Part shown: positions 9,631-49,140 of the stretch, one piece after another
Layout: each line of letters starts with the position of its first letter
Numbering within the stretch: the first letter of the stretch is position 1
Origin: Pithys albifrons albifrons
Lineage: Eukaryota; Chordata; Aves; Passeriformes; Thamnophilidae
DNA length: 64,000 nt
NCBI RefSeq assembly: GCF_047495875.1
Contig: NC_092462.1
Span: forward strand, 26,800,523-26,864,522
Reading direction: 5' to 3'
Notes under the pieces: generated by a model
What the model saw: the letters and a program-made list of their open reading frames with translations, nothing else
Databases searched by the model: none
What the model was told of the DNA's origin: nothing
Position numbers and translations under genes: made by a program

Positions 9631-12600
9631 CGTACAGCATCTTGTCTGGTTCACAAAATGGGGAAAACAACCAATACAGAATATCTAGAAAACAGTTATT
9701 GATAAAGAGCAAGAAAGAATCCACTCTGTGTGCTTCCCACCCCAACTGAAATCTATCATTCAAATATGACTCGCTATGGAACTTTTCATAAGCATTGAGA
9801 CCGTACCAGATGCACATTGTACATTAGATACTTCACATGCAAATTTGCCCTGATGAAGAAACACCAATTCTTGTAGAAAAAAAAATATGTGCAGTCATAT
9901 TAAAAAAAATCTACCAAAATTACTTGATATGGTTTTTGAAATATACACATTTCTACAAATATAACTACCTACAAACAGCTTTGAAACAGTTATTCCAAAG
10001 GTAAGCGCATAAGAAGCTGCCAATATTTTGAAAAGCCATAAAGGCTTTCCAAAACTTTCTGCTACAGACTGTGCTCACAGGAATACAGTTTCAGGCATTA
10101 AAACCACCTGAGAAAGATTCACAAGGAGAAAAGAGGCTGCTTCCTCTTCTTTTGCAAAGGTCTAGAGAGTGCAACACCAACAAATCCTAGCCCGCTGCTA
10201 AGTGGGCTACCTTTACAGTCTTCATTGCTGATGATCCATGTAATGTGCTATTAGTACACAGTGAGGCCAGAATATCGCAGAAGGAGAAAATTCCACATTC
10301 ATATTGGATTTGTACTTTGTGATTCTAGGCTGCTGTAAAGCCTTTCCAGGCCTCAGGTACAACCATCCCACACTCTGGGTAATGTTGGTAAGTATGATGT
10401 GTACAAAGCAGCTTGAGATATTTGATCAACGTACTGTAAAAGAGCAAACTATTAGTAGTCCATCATTCTCTGCTGCTCCATGCTTGAGAATCCAGTTTTA
10501 GCAAAACAGTACAGAAAATCACAGTCTCTTCATGGATCTTTTAAGGAGCTAATAAAAAGCCCCATCAAAATCTTTCAGGCACCTACACAGCACTATATGA
10601 GTGCCACAAGCAGATTCAATCACAGGTCCATTGGAACAGTATGTTGCATTGTGTTGGTCAGCAGGGGTTGAGGCAAGAAAAGGGTTATCAGACAGTGAGT
10701 AATGGGACACCTGCTGTCACCTATAGTCAGCTTTGAGTCCATGCTATACAGTTTCATCACTGACAGAATCAGAGTGTAAGTAATGCTGCAGGCCAAACAC
10801 AGACCTGTCTGTCAACCTCCTGGTGTTTGGACAAAATGTCCTGAGAAGCTGATGTAGTATAACATTCAAGAAATGCAGGAATCATGGCTAGATCCCAGCA
10901 ATGGCATTAGTGATTCATGCTGTGGGTATTATTCTTAAATTCTATGAAACCTTTCAGTGTATGAGTCACATACATGGAGTCAATATGGTCCCTCAGGACT
11001 ACTCAAAACCTTCCTCACTTTTAAAGCTTTTCAACACTGAAAAGAATTTGAACTGATACCTCTAAATTGAACCATCAGTTCAGACAAAAGTGTTGTGAAA
11101 TATCCAGACATACTGTCTGACTAATACCAGCCTGAGTCACTGCCACGTGCTGACCCAGTGCCTTACTCCAAATCCAGCTTCCAAATTATCATTTGCACAG
11201 GTGCAGGACAGAACTCCAGACTAAATGGAACAACCTAAGTGCTGCTCGTTTGTCATGTACAGGATGTGTGGTTAAGACCTAGAGGGCCTGTTCTCTGCTT
11301 TTTCTCCTCAGCATCTTGAAGGAAGTAAAGGAAAACATTTATACAGGCCTACAGGCCAGGATTACAACAGCTGGATACAGAGCCCCACTAAAATCAAAAA
11401 GTTGAATTTTCTCTCTTCCCTTAGTATGTTACCGTAGAGGAGGGAAATAAATTCTAGTCATGACTTTGAGAGCTCCCCTCTGAATCTGAATAAGCATTTC
11501 TGGCTCTTTCTAAAGCCAGCTTTATTCTAGGATAGTTTCCACCAATTTTAAAGGTATTTTTTCTTGAATATATCTGCAAGATTTCAGGTACCTGCTGCAC
11601 TAGTACATTCTGCAGAAAAGGACAAACAACTCTACAGCTGTTTCCTAAATCATTTTAAGTCTCAAAAACCTGAGAATCAGTAGATGTATGTAAAAATGCT
11701 TCTTTATCATAGAATCATATAGTTCAATATTATACACTAAATGTTTATATTGGTTTAGGAAAAAGATATCTGGTGTTCAGGTCACTTAGAACAAATGAAC
11801 GAAGTCTCTGCCATTAAGCAAGAAGGAACCTGAGTTTATAGGCTGGCAGTACAGTGTTAGCACCAAAGGATACCATTAGTTTGCTTTCTGGAAAGGATTT
11901 CAGCCAAGAGCCACTGAATCAGTATCTACTGCTCTTCTCTGATGTTCTGCAGTTTCTTTAGCCAATTTACAGCTACTGTCTACCTAAAAAGCATAAACTT
12001 AAAATCACTAAAAACCCCTCCAAATTTATCCAAGTCACTGAAAAACACAAAACTAACTTTCAGTGTCAGCCTTGAAGTAAAAGAACAGCTTTTTAGGCAC
12101 CATTTCGCCTTTCCAGAACTCAGGCACTAGGGAAGAGCTAGACATTTGGGAAGAATAAAGCTTCTAGAAAACACCTCTGAAAATCCAATTTTTAACCACT
12201 CAATGACTTGAGCTCTGTGGCTGCTTTGCATATGAGGACAGATATGTTGGCATAGATGGGATGGAGAGATGAGAACCACCAATGGGTAGTGCAGAATACT
12301 CCCTTTATTACCATATTCATTAACTCCAGAGCAGCTGTACCACTAAATAGGTGGCTGCAAACACCTTACTGTGGGGCCATCATTAGGCTCTCTAGTTAAT
12401 ATTCTGCCCAGAAGTCTCATTCACATAATACACAACACCTGGTGTAATGTACCCAAGGCACTGCATAAATAAATGAGACTTGACTAAGCCTGTCCAGCTC
12501 AAACTGACTAGATTAATCCAGCATGTGCTGGATAACGAAGGTAACATTTCTTAATTCACAGACAGGTGGATGGCCAGAGGGAGATAAAGATCACAGTAGT

Positions 12601-13550: not shown

Positions 13551-14607
13551 CCATATTACATTATTTATATCTTAAATCTATCTATTTCTGCGCTTAAACA
13601 GTCTTTGTTCTTTTCGGGGCTGTCTTCTGCTCCTCCATATTGTAGGCAATAGTTCATTAGGATGGGGTAGGTACTTAAGGCAGGAAAAAACAGTTCACCA
13701 TTGGACACCAACACCAGTTCAGCTCAGGTCTTCTTCATCTTATGGTATGTCTTGCAACACAGAACTCGAAATGCAAGTTACCTTTTTTTTTCAAGGTTAA
13801 ATGTCCTTGAGGCACACATTGGGATCATCCCATCCCCTTTCCAGGGGTCACTATACCCTCATTAGGGGCACTATCCCCTTTTCAGGGGTCACTATCCTCA
13901 CACTGGGGTCTCCCTCCCCTTTACAGGGGTCACTATCCCCACACTGGGGTCTCCATCCCCTTCTCAGGGGTTTCACAATAGCGGATAACCTGGGAAATAA
14001 TGTCCATGGTTAAATCCACCCCTCGGCCTCGTCCACCTGCAGGTGGCCTGAGGCATCCTGGGTCCATTGAGCCAGGAACAACTCTCCCTTATGCTAGTCC
14101 AGGTGTGATGTTCCTTCATTAGCTCAGCCTTCGGGCACATGAACCTCCACATGATCTATCTACAGATTCTACTCAAGCAGCAGTGTCCTGTCACACACCA
14201 ACAGCCCACATGGGCCTCTCTATGCTTCAATTAATCTTCTTTTATCGGTTAAGCTACCCTCAGAGAGGGAACTGGCTGTCATCTACAAGTCAGTGTAGAG
14301 GTACAGTCTTGGCTAGTTTTCTGGTTCAGCAATGTCCAGTAGACTTGGTTGTTCTCCTCTTCCTCTTGGCTGGAGGCACGGCGGCTTAATTGCTGTTCTT
14401 GGCTCTGTTCTGAGATCTCTGCTTCAACATGTGGACAGCCTCTTTTACCAGCTTTCTTACGTTTTGATTTCCATACCTGGACTTCGAGCACAGAAGTAGA
14501 TGCACTATCCCACCTACTCATGCCTTTCCCTTGGTCGCACAGGCAGGACGACAGTTCACCATGTGACTCACGCTTGGGGTTTGCCCTCTGTTGAGGTGAG
14601 GCAGGCG
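13551..14607 (-). pseudogene. Decayed ERVL-like internal region with integrase remnants
   Basis: This is the surviving internal part of the provirus, read from right to left. Around 13970-14020 the minus strand reads VDLTMDIISQVIRYCET, and around 14024-14083, in another frame, LFLAQWTQDASGHL. From general knowledge these resemble the zinc-binding N-terminal part of integrase of bird ERVL-class elements, now out of frame with each other. The catalytic core of integrase, which should follow, is not visible. Instead a 41-bp tandem repeat and then the polypurine tract follow. Upstream, an 80-codon minus-strand frame (14279-14521), basic near its start (KSKRKKAGKR) and acidic later, may be a fragment of pol or of an unrelated insert; I do not recognise it. 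No functional protein is encoded. Confidence 0.6.
13834..13971. repeat. 41-bp minisatellite, about 3.4 copies, inside the provirus
   Basis: Three consecutive 41-bp units lie at 13834-13874, 13875-13915 and 13916-13956, followed by a partial unit to 13971. Each begins with a small inverted repeat of the form CCCCTTTNCAGGGG, followed by TCACTAT and an A/C-rich stretch to GGGG. Units two and three differ at only a few positions; unit one is more diverged. The frame on the plus strand across it (13801-14013) is a product of the repeat, not a gene. Confidence 0.9.
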
Positions 14608-45174: not shown

Positions 45175-45185
45175 ACATCCAGAGT
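45175..45185. repeat. Left target-site duplication of the RTE element
   Basis: ACATCCAGAGT here matches ACATTCAGAGT at 49130-49140 in ten of eleven positions. It lies directly before the GC-rich start of the element. Confidence 0.82.
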
Positions 45186-45748
45186 CTTCTCCGGGGACAC
45201 CCCCTTGTCGCGGGGGAGAAGCTTGCGTGCCCTCATGAGGTTGAGAGCTATGCTGGAGGTGGTTTGTGCCACCGGTAGGGTCTCCCATGCCAGACAGATC
45301 TCAGCTGAAGGGTCAGACAAAGTGTGTCCACGGACAGGATGGGCTCGCTAGCCGTCTGGCAATCATCCTAGGAGAAGGACAACTCCAACCCCAAACACGG
45401 GCAGATGGAGCTCGTTTAGCCCTGTAAGGCCATCCATCTAAGAGAAGGATACTCTAACCAAACCTACGTCCTGTGTTATTCGCTGTCACCGTCCAACCTC
45501 GCTAGGCCGTGGCAGATGAACCTTAGGAGTAAAGGGTGGGGCCAGTTCTGCACACGCTGTGCCTCACCTAAAAAATCCATTGCGCAGGCTTGAAGGGTTC
45601 TCCCACATTGCAAAGCCCTGTAGCGACAGGTGAGGGTCGAAAACGGCAGCTGGAAGCCGCAGACCCAACCCTGCATGCAGGCGGTTCAGGATATGGGTCA
45701 TTAGAGACTTGACCCCGGAGATGACAGTCTCTTGCGGCAGCATCCTGA
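45186..45748 (+). other. 5' leader of the RTE element
   Basis: The leader is GC-rich and CpG-rich compared with its surroundings. Near its start, CCCCC (45200-45204) and GGGGG (45212-45216) form a 5-bp hairpin stem with a 7-base loop. An in-frame TGA at 45746-45748 directly precedes the first ATG of the endonuclease frame, so the leader ends there unless an older frameshift hides an upstream start. Such leaders usually carry the internal promoter in LINEs; no specific promoter motif is evident. Confidence 0.75.
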
Positions 45749-47130
45749 ATGACCAAGCAGCCTTTTCTAGGGACAGCACTGCTTGCTCCACACAGAGAGG
45801 GGCCTAGCAAAGGTGGCCTAAACAAAGCTCATCTCCACACCCGGTTGGATAACCACGGCCAACCGGAATCTTCCATGCGGTCAAACAAAAAGAGATTTCA
45901 AAGGCATACACCTGCCTGCAAAGGTGTGCTCAAACTAACACTCGCATGTTGGAACATCAGAACCATGCTTGATACTGGGGATAGTGGACGTCCTGAGCGT
46001 TGTTCTGCTCTAATTGCCCACGAACTGTCACGGCTCAACATTGACATTGCTGCTCTCAGTGAAGTTCCTCTTCATGAGGAAGGCAGCCTTAAAGAACATA
46101 GTGCTGGCTACACACTCTACTGGTCAGGCAAACCCAAAACCGAAAGACACATTTCAGGAGTTGGCTTCATGATTAAAAACTCCATTGCCTCCAAACTTGA
46201 AAATCTGCCGACAGGTCATTCCGATCGCATTATGTCCTTACGCCTCCCTCTACACAACAAGCAACATGTTGTTCTTTTTAGCGTATATGCCCCAACTCTC
46301 CAAGCTGACCCAGTGGAAAAAGACAAATTCTACACAGACCTGTGCCGCCTCACCCAAAATGTTCCTGCAGATGATAAGATCATAATCCTTGATGACTTCA
46401 ACGCCAGAGTAGGTAAGAATTCTGAAGCCTGGAAAGGAGTTCTGGGCAAGCATGGCGTTGGAAACTGCAACAACGGATGCCTCCTGCTAGAGTTTTGCGC
46501 AGAACGGCAGCTCACCATCCCCAACACTGTCTTTCAACAGAAAGACAGCCTGAAGACAACCTGGATGCATCCTCGATCCAAGCACTGGCACCTCATTGAC
46601 TATATCTTAGTGCAACAGAGAAATGTCAGTGATGTCCGTCATACTCGAGTGATGCCAAGTGCAGAATGTCAAACAGACCACCGCCTTGTGCGCTGCAAAC
46701 TTAACCTCCACTTCAAGCCCAAACCTAAGAGAGGCGGCATTCCAAGGAGGAGGCTCCAAGTCAGCAATCTTCAAACAGACACAGTGAGAGACAGCTTCCA
46801 GGGAAACCTTCAAACTAGACTTAAAGATAATCCCATAGATCCCTCTCCTGAAGTGCTTTGGCAACATATTAAAAGTTGCATCCTGCAGTCCTCTGAAGAG
46901 TCCCTAGGGTTCTCCTCCAAGAAAAACAAAGACTGGTTTGATGAAAACAATCAAGAGATCCAGGAATTGCTGATGAAGAAGAGAACTGCTCACCAAGCAC
47001 ACCTTGCTCAGCCATCTTGCCATGTAAAAAAAGCCGCCTTTCGTCTTGCATGCAGCAAGCTCCAACAGAAACTTCGAGACATCCAGAACAAATGGTGGCT
47101 CGACCTAGCAGAAAAGACACAGATTTGGGT
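45749..47130 (+). pseudogene. RTE polyprotein, part 1: APE-type endonuclease (frameshifted at its end)
   Basis: This part nicks target DNA so that reverse transcription can start. The ATG at 45749 follows an in-frame TGA; Met43 is another possible start. The endonuclease fold spans about residues 62-320. Visible motifs are CWNIRT with Asn69, ALSEV with Glu105, GVGFMIKN, VYAPT with Tyr180, ILDDFNARVG with Asp216 and Asn218, LIDYILV with Asp284, and TDHRLV with Asp310-His311. All expected catalytic positions are present; the residue before Asp216 is Asp where many relatives have Gly. A linker follows to about residue 460. The frame then runs into a TGA at 47156-47158 because of a frameshift near 47115-47135. 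Downstream the continuation is in the previous frame (DQRGFYEALKAVYGP). Predicted protein families often label such sequences 'craniofacial development protein 2-like', which is a misannotation of this endonuclease. Confidence 0.9.
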
Positions 47131-48194
47131 GACCAAAGAGGATTCTATGAGGCCCTGAAAGCAGTGTACGGACCCACACACCAGGTTCAAAGCCCCCTAC
47201 TCAGTGCAGATGGTCAACTGCTTCTAACAGATAAAACCTCCATCCTGAACTGATGGTCTGAGCACTTTCAGACTCTCTTCAGTGCCAACCGTGTAGTCCA
47301 AGGCTCAGCAATTCAGCACATTACGCAAGAACCAGTGAAACATGAATTGGATACAGCCCCTACTATGGGAGAGATACTCAAGGCCATACAACAGGTGAAA
47401 ACTGGCAAGGCAGCTGGGGTTGATGGAATTCCACCTGAAATCTGGAAGCTTGTTGTGCGTTGCTGGGAACAAGGGGAACTACCATCAGATCTCCGTGATG
47501 CAGCCATCATCACCCTGTACAAGAAGAAAGGAGAAAAATCAGACTGCTCAAATTACCGAGGTATTACTTTGCTCTCCATTGCTGGTAAAATCCTTGCAAG
47601 AATACTTCTGAACAGACTAGTACCCACTATTGCAGATCTTCTACCTGAAAGCCAGTGTGGTTTCAGAGCCAATAGGAGCACCACAGACATGGTGTTTGTT
47701 CTCAGACAACTGCAAGAGAAGTGTAGGGAACAGAACAAAGGTCTCTATGTAACCTTCGTTGACCTCACCAAAGCTTTCGACACTGTGAGCAGAAAAGACC
47801 TGTGGCAGATCTTGGAACATTTAGGATGTCCCCCCAAGTTCCTCAAAATGATCATCCTGCTACATGAGGATCAGCGTGGACAAGTCAGATATGGCGATGC
47901 ACTCTCTGAGCCCTTTTCAATAACCAATGGTGTGAAACAAGGTTGCGTTCTTGCACCAACTCTATTCACAATCTTCTTCAGCATGATGCTCCAAAGAGCC
48001 ACAGCAGACCTCGATGAAGAAAACGGCATCTACATCCGATATCGTACCGATGGAAGCCTCTTCAACCTAAGGCGACTGAAGGCCCACACCAAGACCCTGA
48101 ATCACCTTGTCCACGAGCTGCTTTTTGCTGATGATGCCGCCCTCGTTGCTCACATAGAAGCAGCTCTGCAGCCCTTAACATCCTGCTTTGCAGA
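47131..48194 (+). pseudogene. RTE polyprotein, part 2: reverse transcriptase (one nonsense codon)
   Basis: This part copies the element's RNA into DNA. It reads GFYEALKAVYGP, then meets a TGA at 47251-47253, where a CGA (Arg) to TGA change at a CpG is the likely cause, and stays open to about 48194. Counting from the Met at 47335, the reverse-transcriptase motifs appear in order: GKAAGVDGIPPEIW (24-37), NYRGITLL (73-80), QCGFRANRST (107-116), FVDLTKAFDTV with the first catalytic Asp at 143, NGVKQGC (198-204), and ELLFADDAAL with the Asp pair at 266-267. The active-site triad is intact. A 2-bp insertion near 48192-48197 (an extra AG in GCAGAGAGG) shifts the frame, and the original frame then stops at 48229-48231. 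Apart from the TGA and the two bounding frameshifts, the domain is whole. Confidence 0.92.
47251..47253 (+). other. In-frame TGA in the reverse-transcriptase part
   Basis: TGA interrupts the open frame between SILN and WSEHFQ. A C-to-T change at a CpG, turning CGA into TGA, is the simplest origin and is the typical mutation of methylated CpG in vertebrate transposons. Confidence 0.75.
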
Positions 48195-49076
48195 GAGGCT
48201 GCTGAGCTTTTTGGCCTGGAAGTCAGCCTGAAGAAGACGGAAGTTCTCTACCAACCTGCACCTCAAGAAGTCTTCCATCATCCTCGCATCACCATAGGCA
48301 ATTCAGAGCTTAAGTCAGTCCAGCAGTTCACCTATCTGGGAAGTATCACTTCCTCAGACGGTAAGATTGACAAAGAGATAGACAACAGGCTGGCAAAGGC
48401 ATACAAAGCCTTCGGAAAACTCCATAAAAGAGTCTGGTCCAATAAACACCTGAAGAAAAGTACAAAGATTAGTGTCTACAGAGCCATTGTACTGTCTACT
48501 CTTTTATATGGGTCTGAATCCTGGGTCATCTACTGCCACCACCTGCGGCTTCTCGAACGCTTCCATCAGCGCTGCCTCCGTTCAATCCTAAACATCCACT
48601 GGTCTGATTACGTGACCAATGTGTCTGTTCTTGAACAGGCAGGGGCCAGCAGTATCGAGGCCATGCTGATGAGAACGCAGCTGCGCTGGGCAGGGCACGT
48701 CTCCAGGATGGAGGATCACCGCCTTCCGAAGATTGTGCTCTATGGTGAACTCGCCACCGGCTGCCGCAAGAGAGGAGCCCCAAAGAAGAGATACAAGGAC
48801 TCCCTGAAACAACACCTCAGCCTTGGCCATATTGACTGCCACCAATGGTCCACTCTGGCCTCCAATCGGGATTCATGGAGACACACCATTCACGACGCTG
48901 CTGCTTCCTTTGAGAATGCACGGAGAGTCAGTCTTGAGGAGAAGAGACAACGCAGAAAGAACCGTTCCTTGCCAATGTCACCTAGGGAGACGTTCCGCTG
49001 TGCCTTTTGTGACCGGATCTGCCTATCCCGTATCGGCCTTTTTAGCCACCAGCACGCTTGCAGCAAGCGTGGGTAG
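48195..49076 (+). pseudogene. RTE polyprotein, part 3: C-terminal region with Cys2-His-Cys finger
   Basis: After the 2-bp insertion, the third frame is open without a stop from 48195 to the TAG at 49074-49076. It begins AAELFGLEVSLKKTEVLY, the thumb side of the reverse transcriptase, and continues with FTYLGSITSSDGKIDKEI, STLLYGSESW and LRWAGHVSRMEDHRLPK, blocks common to the C-terminal half of many LINE proteins. A basic stretch (EKRQRRKNRS) precedes a final finger, FRCAFCDRICLSRIGLFSH and then QHAC. The spacing is C-x2-C-x12-H-x3-C, which probably binds nucleic acid. The last ATG-initiated subframe is at 48612, but this is not a separate gene. Confidence 0.88.
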
Positions 49077-49129
49077 TGCCCTTCTCAAATCTTCATTCGC
49101 GAAGCCTAGCCATGATGATGATGATGATG
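49077..49129 (+). other. 3' leader and (ATG)n tail of the RTE element
   Basis: Only about 37 bases separate the TAG stop from a tail of six ATG repeats, a short 3' leader typical of RTE elements. It includes CTTCATTCGCGAAG (49091-49104), which forms a 4-bp stem and contains the palindrome TTCGCGAA. This may be the structure by which the reverse transcriptase recognises its RNA. Confidence 0.75.
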
Positions 49130-49140
49130 ACATTCAGAGT
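49130..49140. repeat. Right target-site duplication of the RTE element
   Basis: ACATTCAGAGT follows the (ATG)n tail and matches 45175-45185 except at one position. The first base could also belong to the tail. Confidence 0.82.

Follow-up and report, generated by a model that had tools for sequence, protein, structure and literature searches.

The window analysed here is a stretch of 64,000 nucleotides (C5:26800523-26864522) of a bird genome of 1.144 Gb in 53 contigs, and it contains a long interspersed nuclear element (LINE) of 3,944 bp that is complete at both ends. It is almost certain that this element is AviRTE, a family of the RTE clade, present as a full-length inactivated copy in an antbird of the Thamnophilidae (Pithys or a close relative). 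The copy is a member of a young subfamily, and the genome also contains older AviRTE copies as well as short interspersed nuclear elements (SINEs) with a 5S-derived head and an AviRTE tail. AviRTE had been put forward as a candidate in the original prediction, which was made from the letters of the window, and this is borne out because primer sites, the length of a 126-bp amplicon, anatomy and host all agree. The horizontal origin of AviRTE in suboscine birds rests on the work of Suh et al. (2016), which we cite as support; what is new here are the intact frames in four of 39 sister copies and the relatedness of copies lying close to each other.

Ten AviRTE primers for the polymerase chain reaction are printed in Suh et al. 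(2016; PMC4844689). All ten have their best site in the window inside the element, with order and orientation kept and 25 mismatches in 205 nt; as a control, a sister copy was shuffled 100 times, and the number of mismatches never fell below 70. The int amplicon, which is located in the 5′ untranslated region (UTR), has 126 bp in the window copy and is therefore equal to the published length. It is exactly 126 bp long in 29 of the 39 sister copies and the primer order is likewise kept in 29 of 39, the deviating copies being mostly truncated or gapped. Moreover, the published anatomy, with a 5′UTR of ~800 bp, an open reading frame (ORF) of ~3.2 kb and a 3′UTR of ~40 bp (PMC4844689), is found again: in the sister copies the first Met stands at ~nt 797, the unbroken ones have 1,052-1,053 codons (ORF of ~3.16 kb), and the 3′UTR in the window has 35 nt. 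The element is thus like AviRTE of suboscine birds (Gymnopithys rufigula and others) in primer sites, amplicon, UTR and ORF sizes, host clade and a 5S-headed SINE, but its primer sites are ~10% different.

The features typical of the RTE clade are all present, namely a long ORF with AP endonuclease and reverse transcriptase, a simple-repeat tail and target-site duplications (TSDs), here of 11 bp with one mismatch (Table 1). The Pfam domains Exo_endo_phos and RVT_1 are matched on the window copy's own pieces, whereas the Cys/His finger at the C-terminus gave a weak match below the cut-off in a sister copy only (E=0.041) and was unmatched by Pfam on the window copy's own piece. The full LINE described in the original prediction therefore stands with regard to both ends, TSDs, endonuclease, reverse transcriptase and the (ATG)n tail, but less so for the finger. 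The ORF of the window copy is split into three long pieces, and two of the five insertions or deletions (indels) in the ORF region are frame-breaking, so that the copy is full-length yet dead. From known LINE biology we infer that AviRTE RNA would have been copied into the site through target-primed reverse transcription: the element endonuclease would nick the target, the RNA 3′ end with its ATG-repeat tail would be reverse transcribed at the nick, and a staggered cut would yield the 11-bp duplication. The endonuclease motif LACWNIRT (window 45941-45964; P0001 residues 18-49) shortly precedes the first Met of the protein P0001, in a frame that is open but without AUG, and ~30 residues upstream resemble the amphioxus and carp relatives P0002 and P0022. 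Because this open AUG-less frame resembles relatives, this protein likely has a non-AUG start.

A protein search gave 1213 matches. Among the 120 listed, the top scores run over nearly the whole length with 74-77% identity, the 77% belonging to one unnamed sequence, and the best named relatives are from Branchiostoma (74%), Diadema (72%), Cirrhinus (70%), Penaeus (66%) and Oratosquilla (63%); one shorter unnamed match has 81% identity over 56% of the query. Most of these 120 are unnamed, and no bird, reptile or nematode is found among the named ones. The original prediction had considered a vertically inherited vertebrate RTE of all birds or reptiles as best match to speak against its reading, but the named relatives among the matches listed are aquatic animals. 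In a midpoint-rooted tree of 48 reverse transcriptases the antbird element is nested in a group of 41 (support 100/99) and unplaced inside a group of 39 (88/83). Both the tree and the named aquatic relatives agree with the published grouping of AviRTE with RTEs from aquatic hosts (PMC4844689). RTEs from such hosts, among them Branchiostoma, Cirrhinus and Penaeus, are like the antbird element in their endonuclease-reverse transcriptase protein, but differ from it in host and stand on separate twigs of the tree. Relatives on viral contigs were also looked for, and of three stretches that turned up none was confirmed. As the protein is placed among RTEs of amphioxus, carp, shrimp, sea urchin and unnamed sequences without resolution, the element might be a different RTE family, vertically inherited or newly acquired; this is very improbable in view of the 5′UTR primer sites, the 126-bp amplicon and the antbird-type SINE, the 5′UTR being poorly conserved between LINE families.

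AviRTE, already recorded from several groups of tropical birds, has a patchy distribution ascribed to horizontal transfer and is present in seven bird clades and two filarial clades (PMC4844689). The host of the window belongs to one of these bird clades, being an antbird by ND2 and by its antbird-type SINE. Among the 120 listed of 7998 protein matches of an open ND2 frame on C15 of the assembly, Pithys albifrons is the best with 96% identity, followed by the next with 92%. The named genera among these matches we take to be antbirds, the lineages of Pithys and Gymnopithys having been looked up. The ND2 match and the 5S-headed SINE together place the host within a lineage known to carry AviRTE. 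This fits the expectation of the original prediction that AviRTE would place the window in a known host lineage, since antbirds are suboscines named by Suh et al. (2016), and as antbirds are a published AviRTE host the window element is an ordinary member of the family. A nuclear stretch, L049 (C15:842159-846499), has ND2 and COX1 frames that are open under the vertebrate mitochondrial code and appears to be a recent mitochondrial insertion.

The SINE became visible with the int-F primer, which with at most one mismatch occurs 2751 times in the genome, the backward control occurring 0 times. Six of these loci (the first six on C1) were cut out, and they align to the LINE only over the tail parts of the SINE. 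All six carry a part of the AviRTE 5′UTR, and the AviRTE tail of each agrees with a young LINE copy at 82-86% identity. A 5S ribosomal RNA (rRNA) match (Rfam, E<=0.01) was found in five of the six, four of them over the gathering score; it is located directly upstream of the tail in four loci (three over the gathering score) and ~400 nt upstream in L060. The sixth locus, L062, has no Rfam match. Just upstream of its SINE head a tRNA-like stretch was seen by eye, so that this head is perhaps composite or adjoins a tRNA-derived repeat. A 5S-headed SINE is described for antbirds (PMC4844689), and GymnSINE of Suh et al. (2016) has the same architecture of a 5S rRNA-derived head, an AviRTE 5′UTR part and the 3′UTR; the likeness is judged by this architecture. 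Unlike the AviRTE LINE, GymnSINE is non-autonomous. The 2751 int-F matches had suggested a primer-exact AviRTE LINE subfamily beside that of the window, which is rejected on account of the alignment of the six loci over SINE tails only and of the lack of an exact site for the ORF primer 3F in the genome.

Several points weigh against the assignment to AviRTE and to this host. The comparison of letters with the published family covers the primer sites, where the window copy is 88% identical to the published primers; among the AviRTE consensuses nucleotide identity is 83-99% (PMC4844689). The young subfamily is ~10% off at these sites, which is much, since the primers worked in Gymnopithys (PMC4844689) and the host is closely related to it. 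Primer 3F has seven places in the genome with one mismatch and none exact. Furthermore, the ND2 frame comes from an apparent nuclear copy of mitochondrial DNA, so that the genus is uncertain from it.

The search for further copies used the reverse-transcriptase stretch of the window and gave 1345 first-look candidates, out of which 40 were scored and all 40 matched, including the window copy. The copy set therefore consists of the window copy and 39 others and is biased to copies closest to the window copy. The absence of relatives elsewhere in the genome, which the original prediction would have taken as a sign of contamination, is not what was found. In 31 of the 39 other copies both element ends are reached, some with internal gaps, and TSDs were scored in 31 of the 40 copies, compared to 15 of 1560 mismatched left/right flank pairs under identical scoring. 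Contamination, e.g., with nematode DNA, for which no support was found, can be regarded as practically negligible, as the copies, most of them with their own TSDs, are distributed over many long contigs and the window itself lies inside a contig of 77 Mb. The 7.4-Mb contig C26 is dense, with four of the 40 scored copies and three of the seven near matches of primer 3F.

The median Kimura two-parameter distance (K2P) among the 39 other copies is 0.036 and their relationship is star-like, so that each copy is ~1.8% away from its source. At neutral rates of 2-3 per billion years in birds, the young subfamily would be roughly 6-9 million years old. The genome also contains an older copy, L065, whose distances to eight family copies used for comparison are 0.110-0.123. 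It and the SINE tails hold more primer-like states, and the young subfamily has fixed changes at ~10% of the published primer bases, as would be expected if this subfamily had entered antbirds later by a second independent horizontal transfer, apart from the ancestral suboscine AviRTE. Such a second transfer is nevertheless very unlikely, because L066 is intermediate, with 0.038-0.053 from the same eight family copies and only one mismatch to primer 3F, and because the distance of L065 is within the suboscine range, which amounts to 0.133 between Gymnopithys and Manacus (PMC4844689).

In four of the 39 copies (L011, L036, L040, and L044) the whole frame is unbroken between first Met and stop. 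Three of them are near the overall median distance, and L011 is lower (0.0317 vs. 0.036). In simulations at 1.8% divergence, 12% of the frames stayed free of stops, and frame-breaking indels are absent in 15 of the 36 copies covering the ORF; the rough product of both is a neutral expectation of ~2 intact frames, so the four survivors alone do not show activity. In the assemblies sampled by Suh et al. (PMC4844689), each genome had 0-6 AviRTE copies of full length and no copy was unbroken, whereas here 31 of 39 are both-ended and four are intact.

Copies lying close to each other on a chromosome have many more rare mutations in common than would be expected. Rare derived states, defined as present in two to four copies, were counted in 741 pairs, with L046 left out as an outlier. 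The 16 pairs less than 3 Mb apart share 4.31 such states per pair compared to 1.26 in all 741, and none of 5000 position shuffles reached 4.31; with transversions only, the values are 1.94 and 0.16, again with 0 of 5000 shuffles. This local excess persists without the window pair, without that pair and L027/L036, or without all copies on C26, while beyond 3 Mb the excess within a chromosome is slight (1.34, n=64, compared to 1.18, n=661). Sharing is strongest in local pairs, which take all of the first four ranks, namely L010/L024 (1.6 Mb), the window copy and L032 (36 kb), L027/L036 (28 kb), and L021/L028 (1.0 Mb), with split support of 96-100 and branches of 0.0032-0.0061. The window copy and L032 (C5:26.88 Mb) have four deletions and a 2-nt insertion in common. 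A 30-mer spanning the 10-nt deletion, with up to two mismatches allowed, is found at exactly two places in the genome, namely in these two copies. A segmental duplication behind this relatedness was ruled out by unrelated flanks and differing TSDs: flanks of 0.25-0.5 kb gave one flank-flank match overall, between unpaired copies, and among the eight paired copies six have TSDs, all different, with none at threshold for L021 and L036.

This pattern suggests that daughter copies landed near their parents, which is a lead from 40 copies and not proof. We therefore propose only tentatively, at somewhat less than an even chance, that AviRTE spread locally, with insertions preferentially tens of kb to a few Mb from the parent, and that a frame-broken parent could be copied in trans nearby, as for the window copy and L032. 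Against local insertion, three pairs on different chromosomes have support of 91-96, albeit with shorter branches (0.0007-0.0016), the pair L030/L046 on different chromosomes has support of 82 with a branch of 0.0044, and six of the 16 near pairs have a K2P of at least 0.035, which is about the family average. A serious rival is ectopic gene conversion between linked copies, which favours linked repeats and would make neighbours similar without their being local daughters; it may well, though not quite probably, be the explanation. However, no part of the element stands out in the reduced divergence of the four local pairs (heterogeneity p 0.32 to 0.71), non-majority states (in up to six copies) are shared over ~3 kb or more in each pair, and none of the pairs is recent, with K2P of 0.020-0.029 compared to the median of 0.036. 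The states private to L021 and L028 span only 1086-2778.

Within the window, three AviRTE copies as queries established no further AviRTE fragments, and an Rfam scan gave nothing of use. The 5′-truncated CR1 copies that the original prediction describes around the element were probed with one CR1 tail motif, giving a single match with two mismatches at 11706-11723, with 0 expected in the window. A 41-bp tandem array of 3.5 copies is located at 13830-13971.

Table 1. Parts of the AviRTE copy and its borders, in window positions.
Feature	Position	Strand	Basis or remark
Left TSD ACATCCAGAGT	45175..45185	+	TSD scoring
AviRTE LINE copy, both ends complete	45186..49129	+	31/39 other copies share the same end points, some internally gapped
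5′UTR, 779 nt here (~797 in sister copies), including the 126-bp diagnostic amplicon 45470-45595	45186..45964	+	
AP-type endonuclease region	45950..46627	+	Pfam PF03372, E=3.5e-6
10-nt frame-breaking deletion	47119..47120	+	Elsewhere in genome only in copy 36 kb downstream
Reverse transcriptase region	47524..48171	+	Pfam PF00078, E=7.2e-29
Cys/His finger-like C-terminal protein tail	48993..49073	+	Weak match, sister copy only
3′UTR, 35 nt, after stop codon 49074-49076	49077..49111	+	
(ATG)6 tail	49112..49129	+	
Right TSD ACATTCAGAGT	49130..49140	+	

A published, horizontally transferred retrotransposon could thus be recognised from reading the raw sequence, which ties the window to antbirds. 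Family and host clade of the element were both known before; what deserves further attention is the local pattern. As the antbird assembly has long contigs with many complete AviRTE copies and a few unbroken frames, the recent history of the family is readable copy by copy. If upheld in the full copy set, the chromosomal closeness of related copies would be unexpected for a LINE and open to testing, and local insertion, if true, would suggest that reverse transcription takes place close to the site of transcription.

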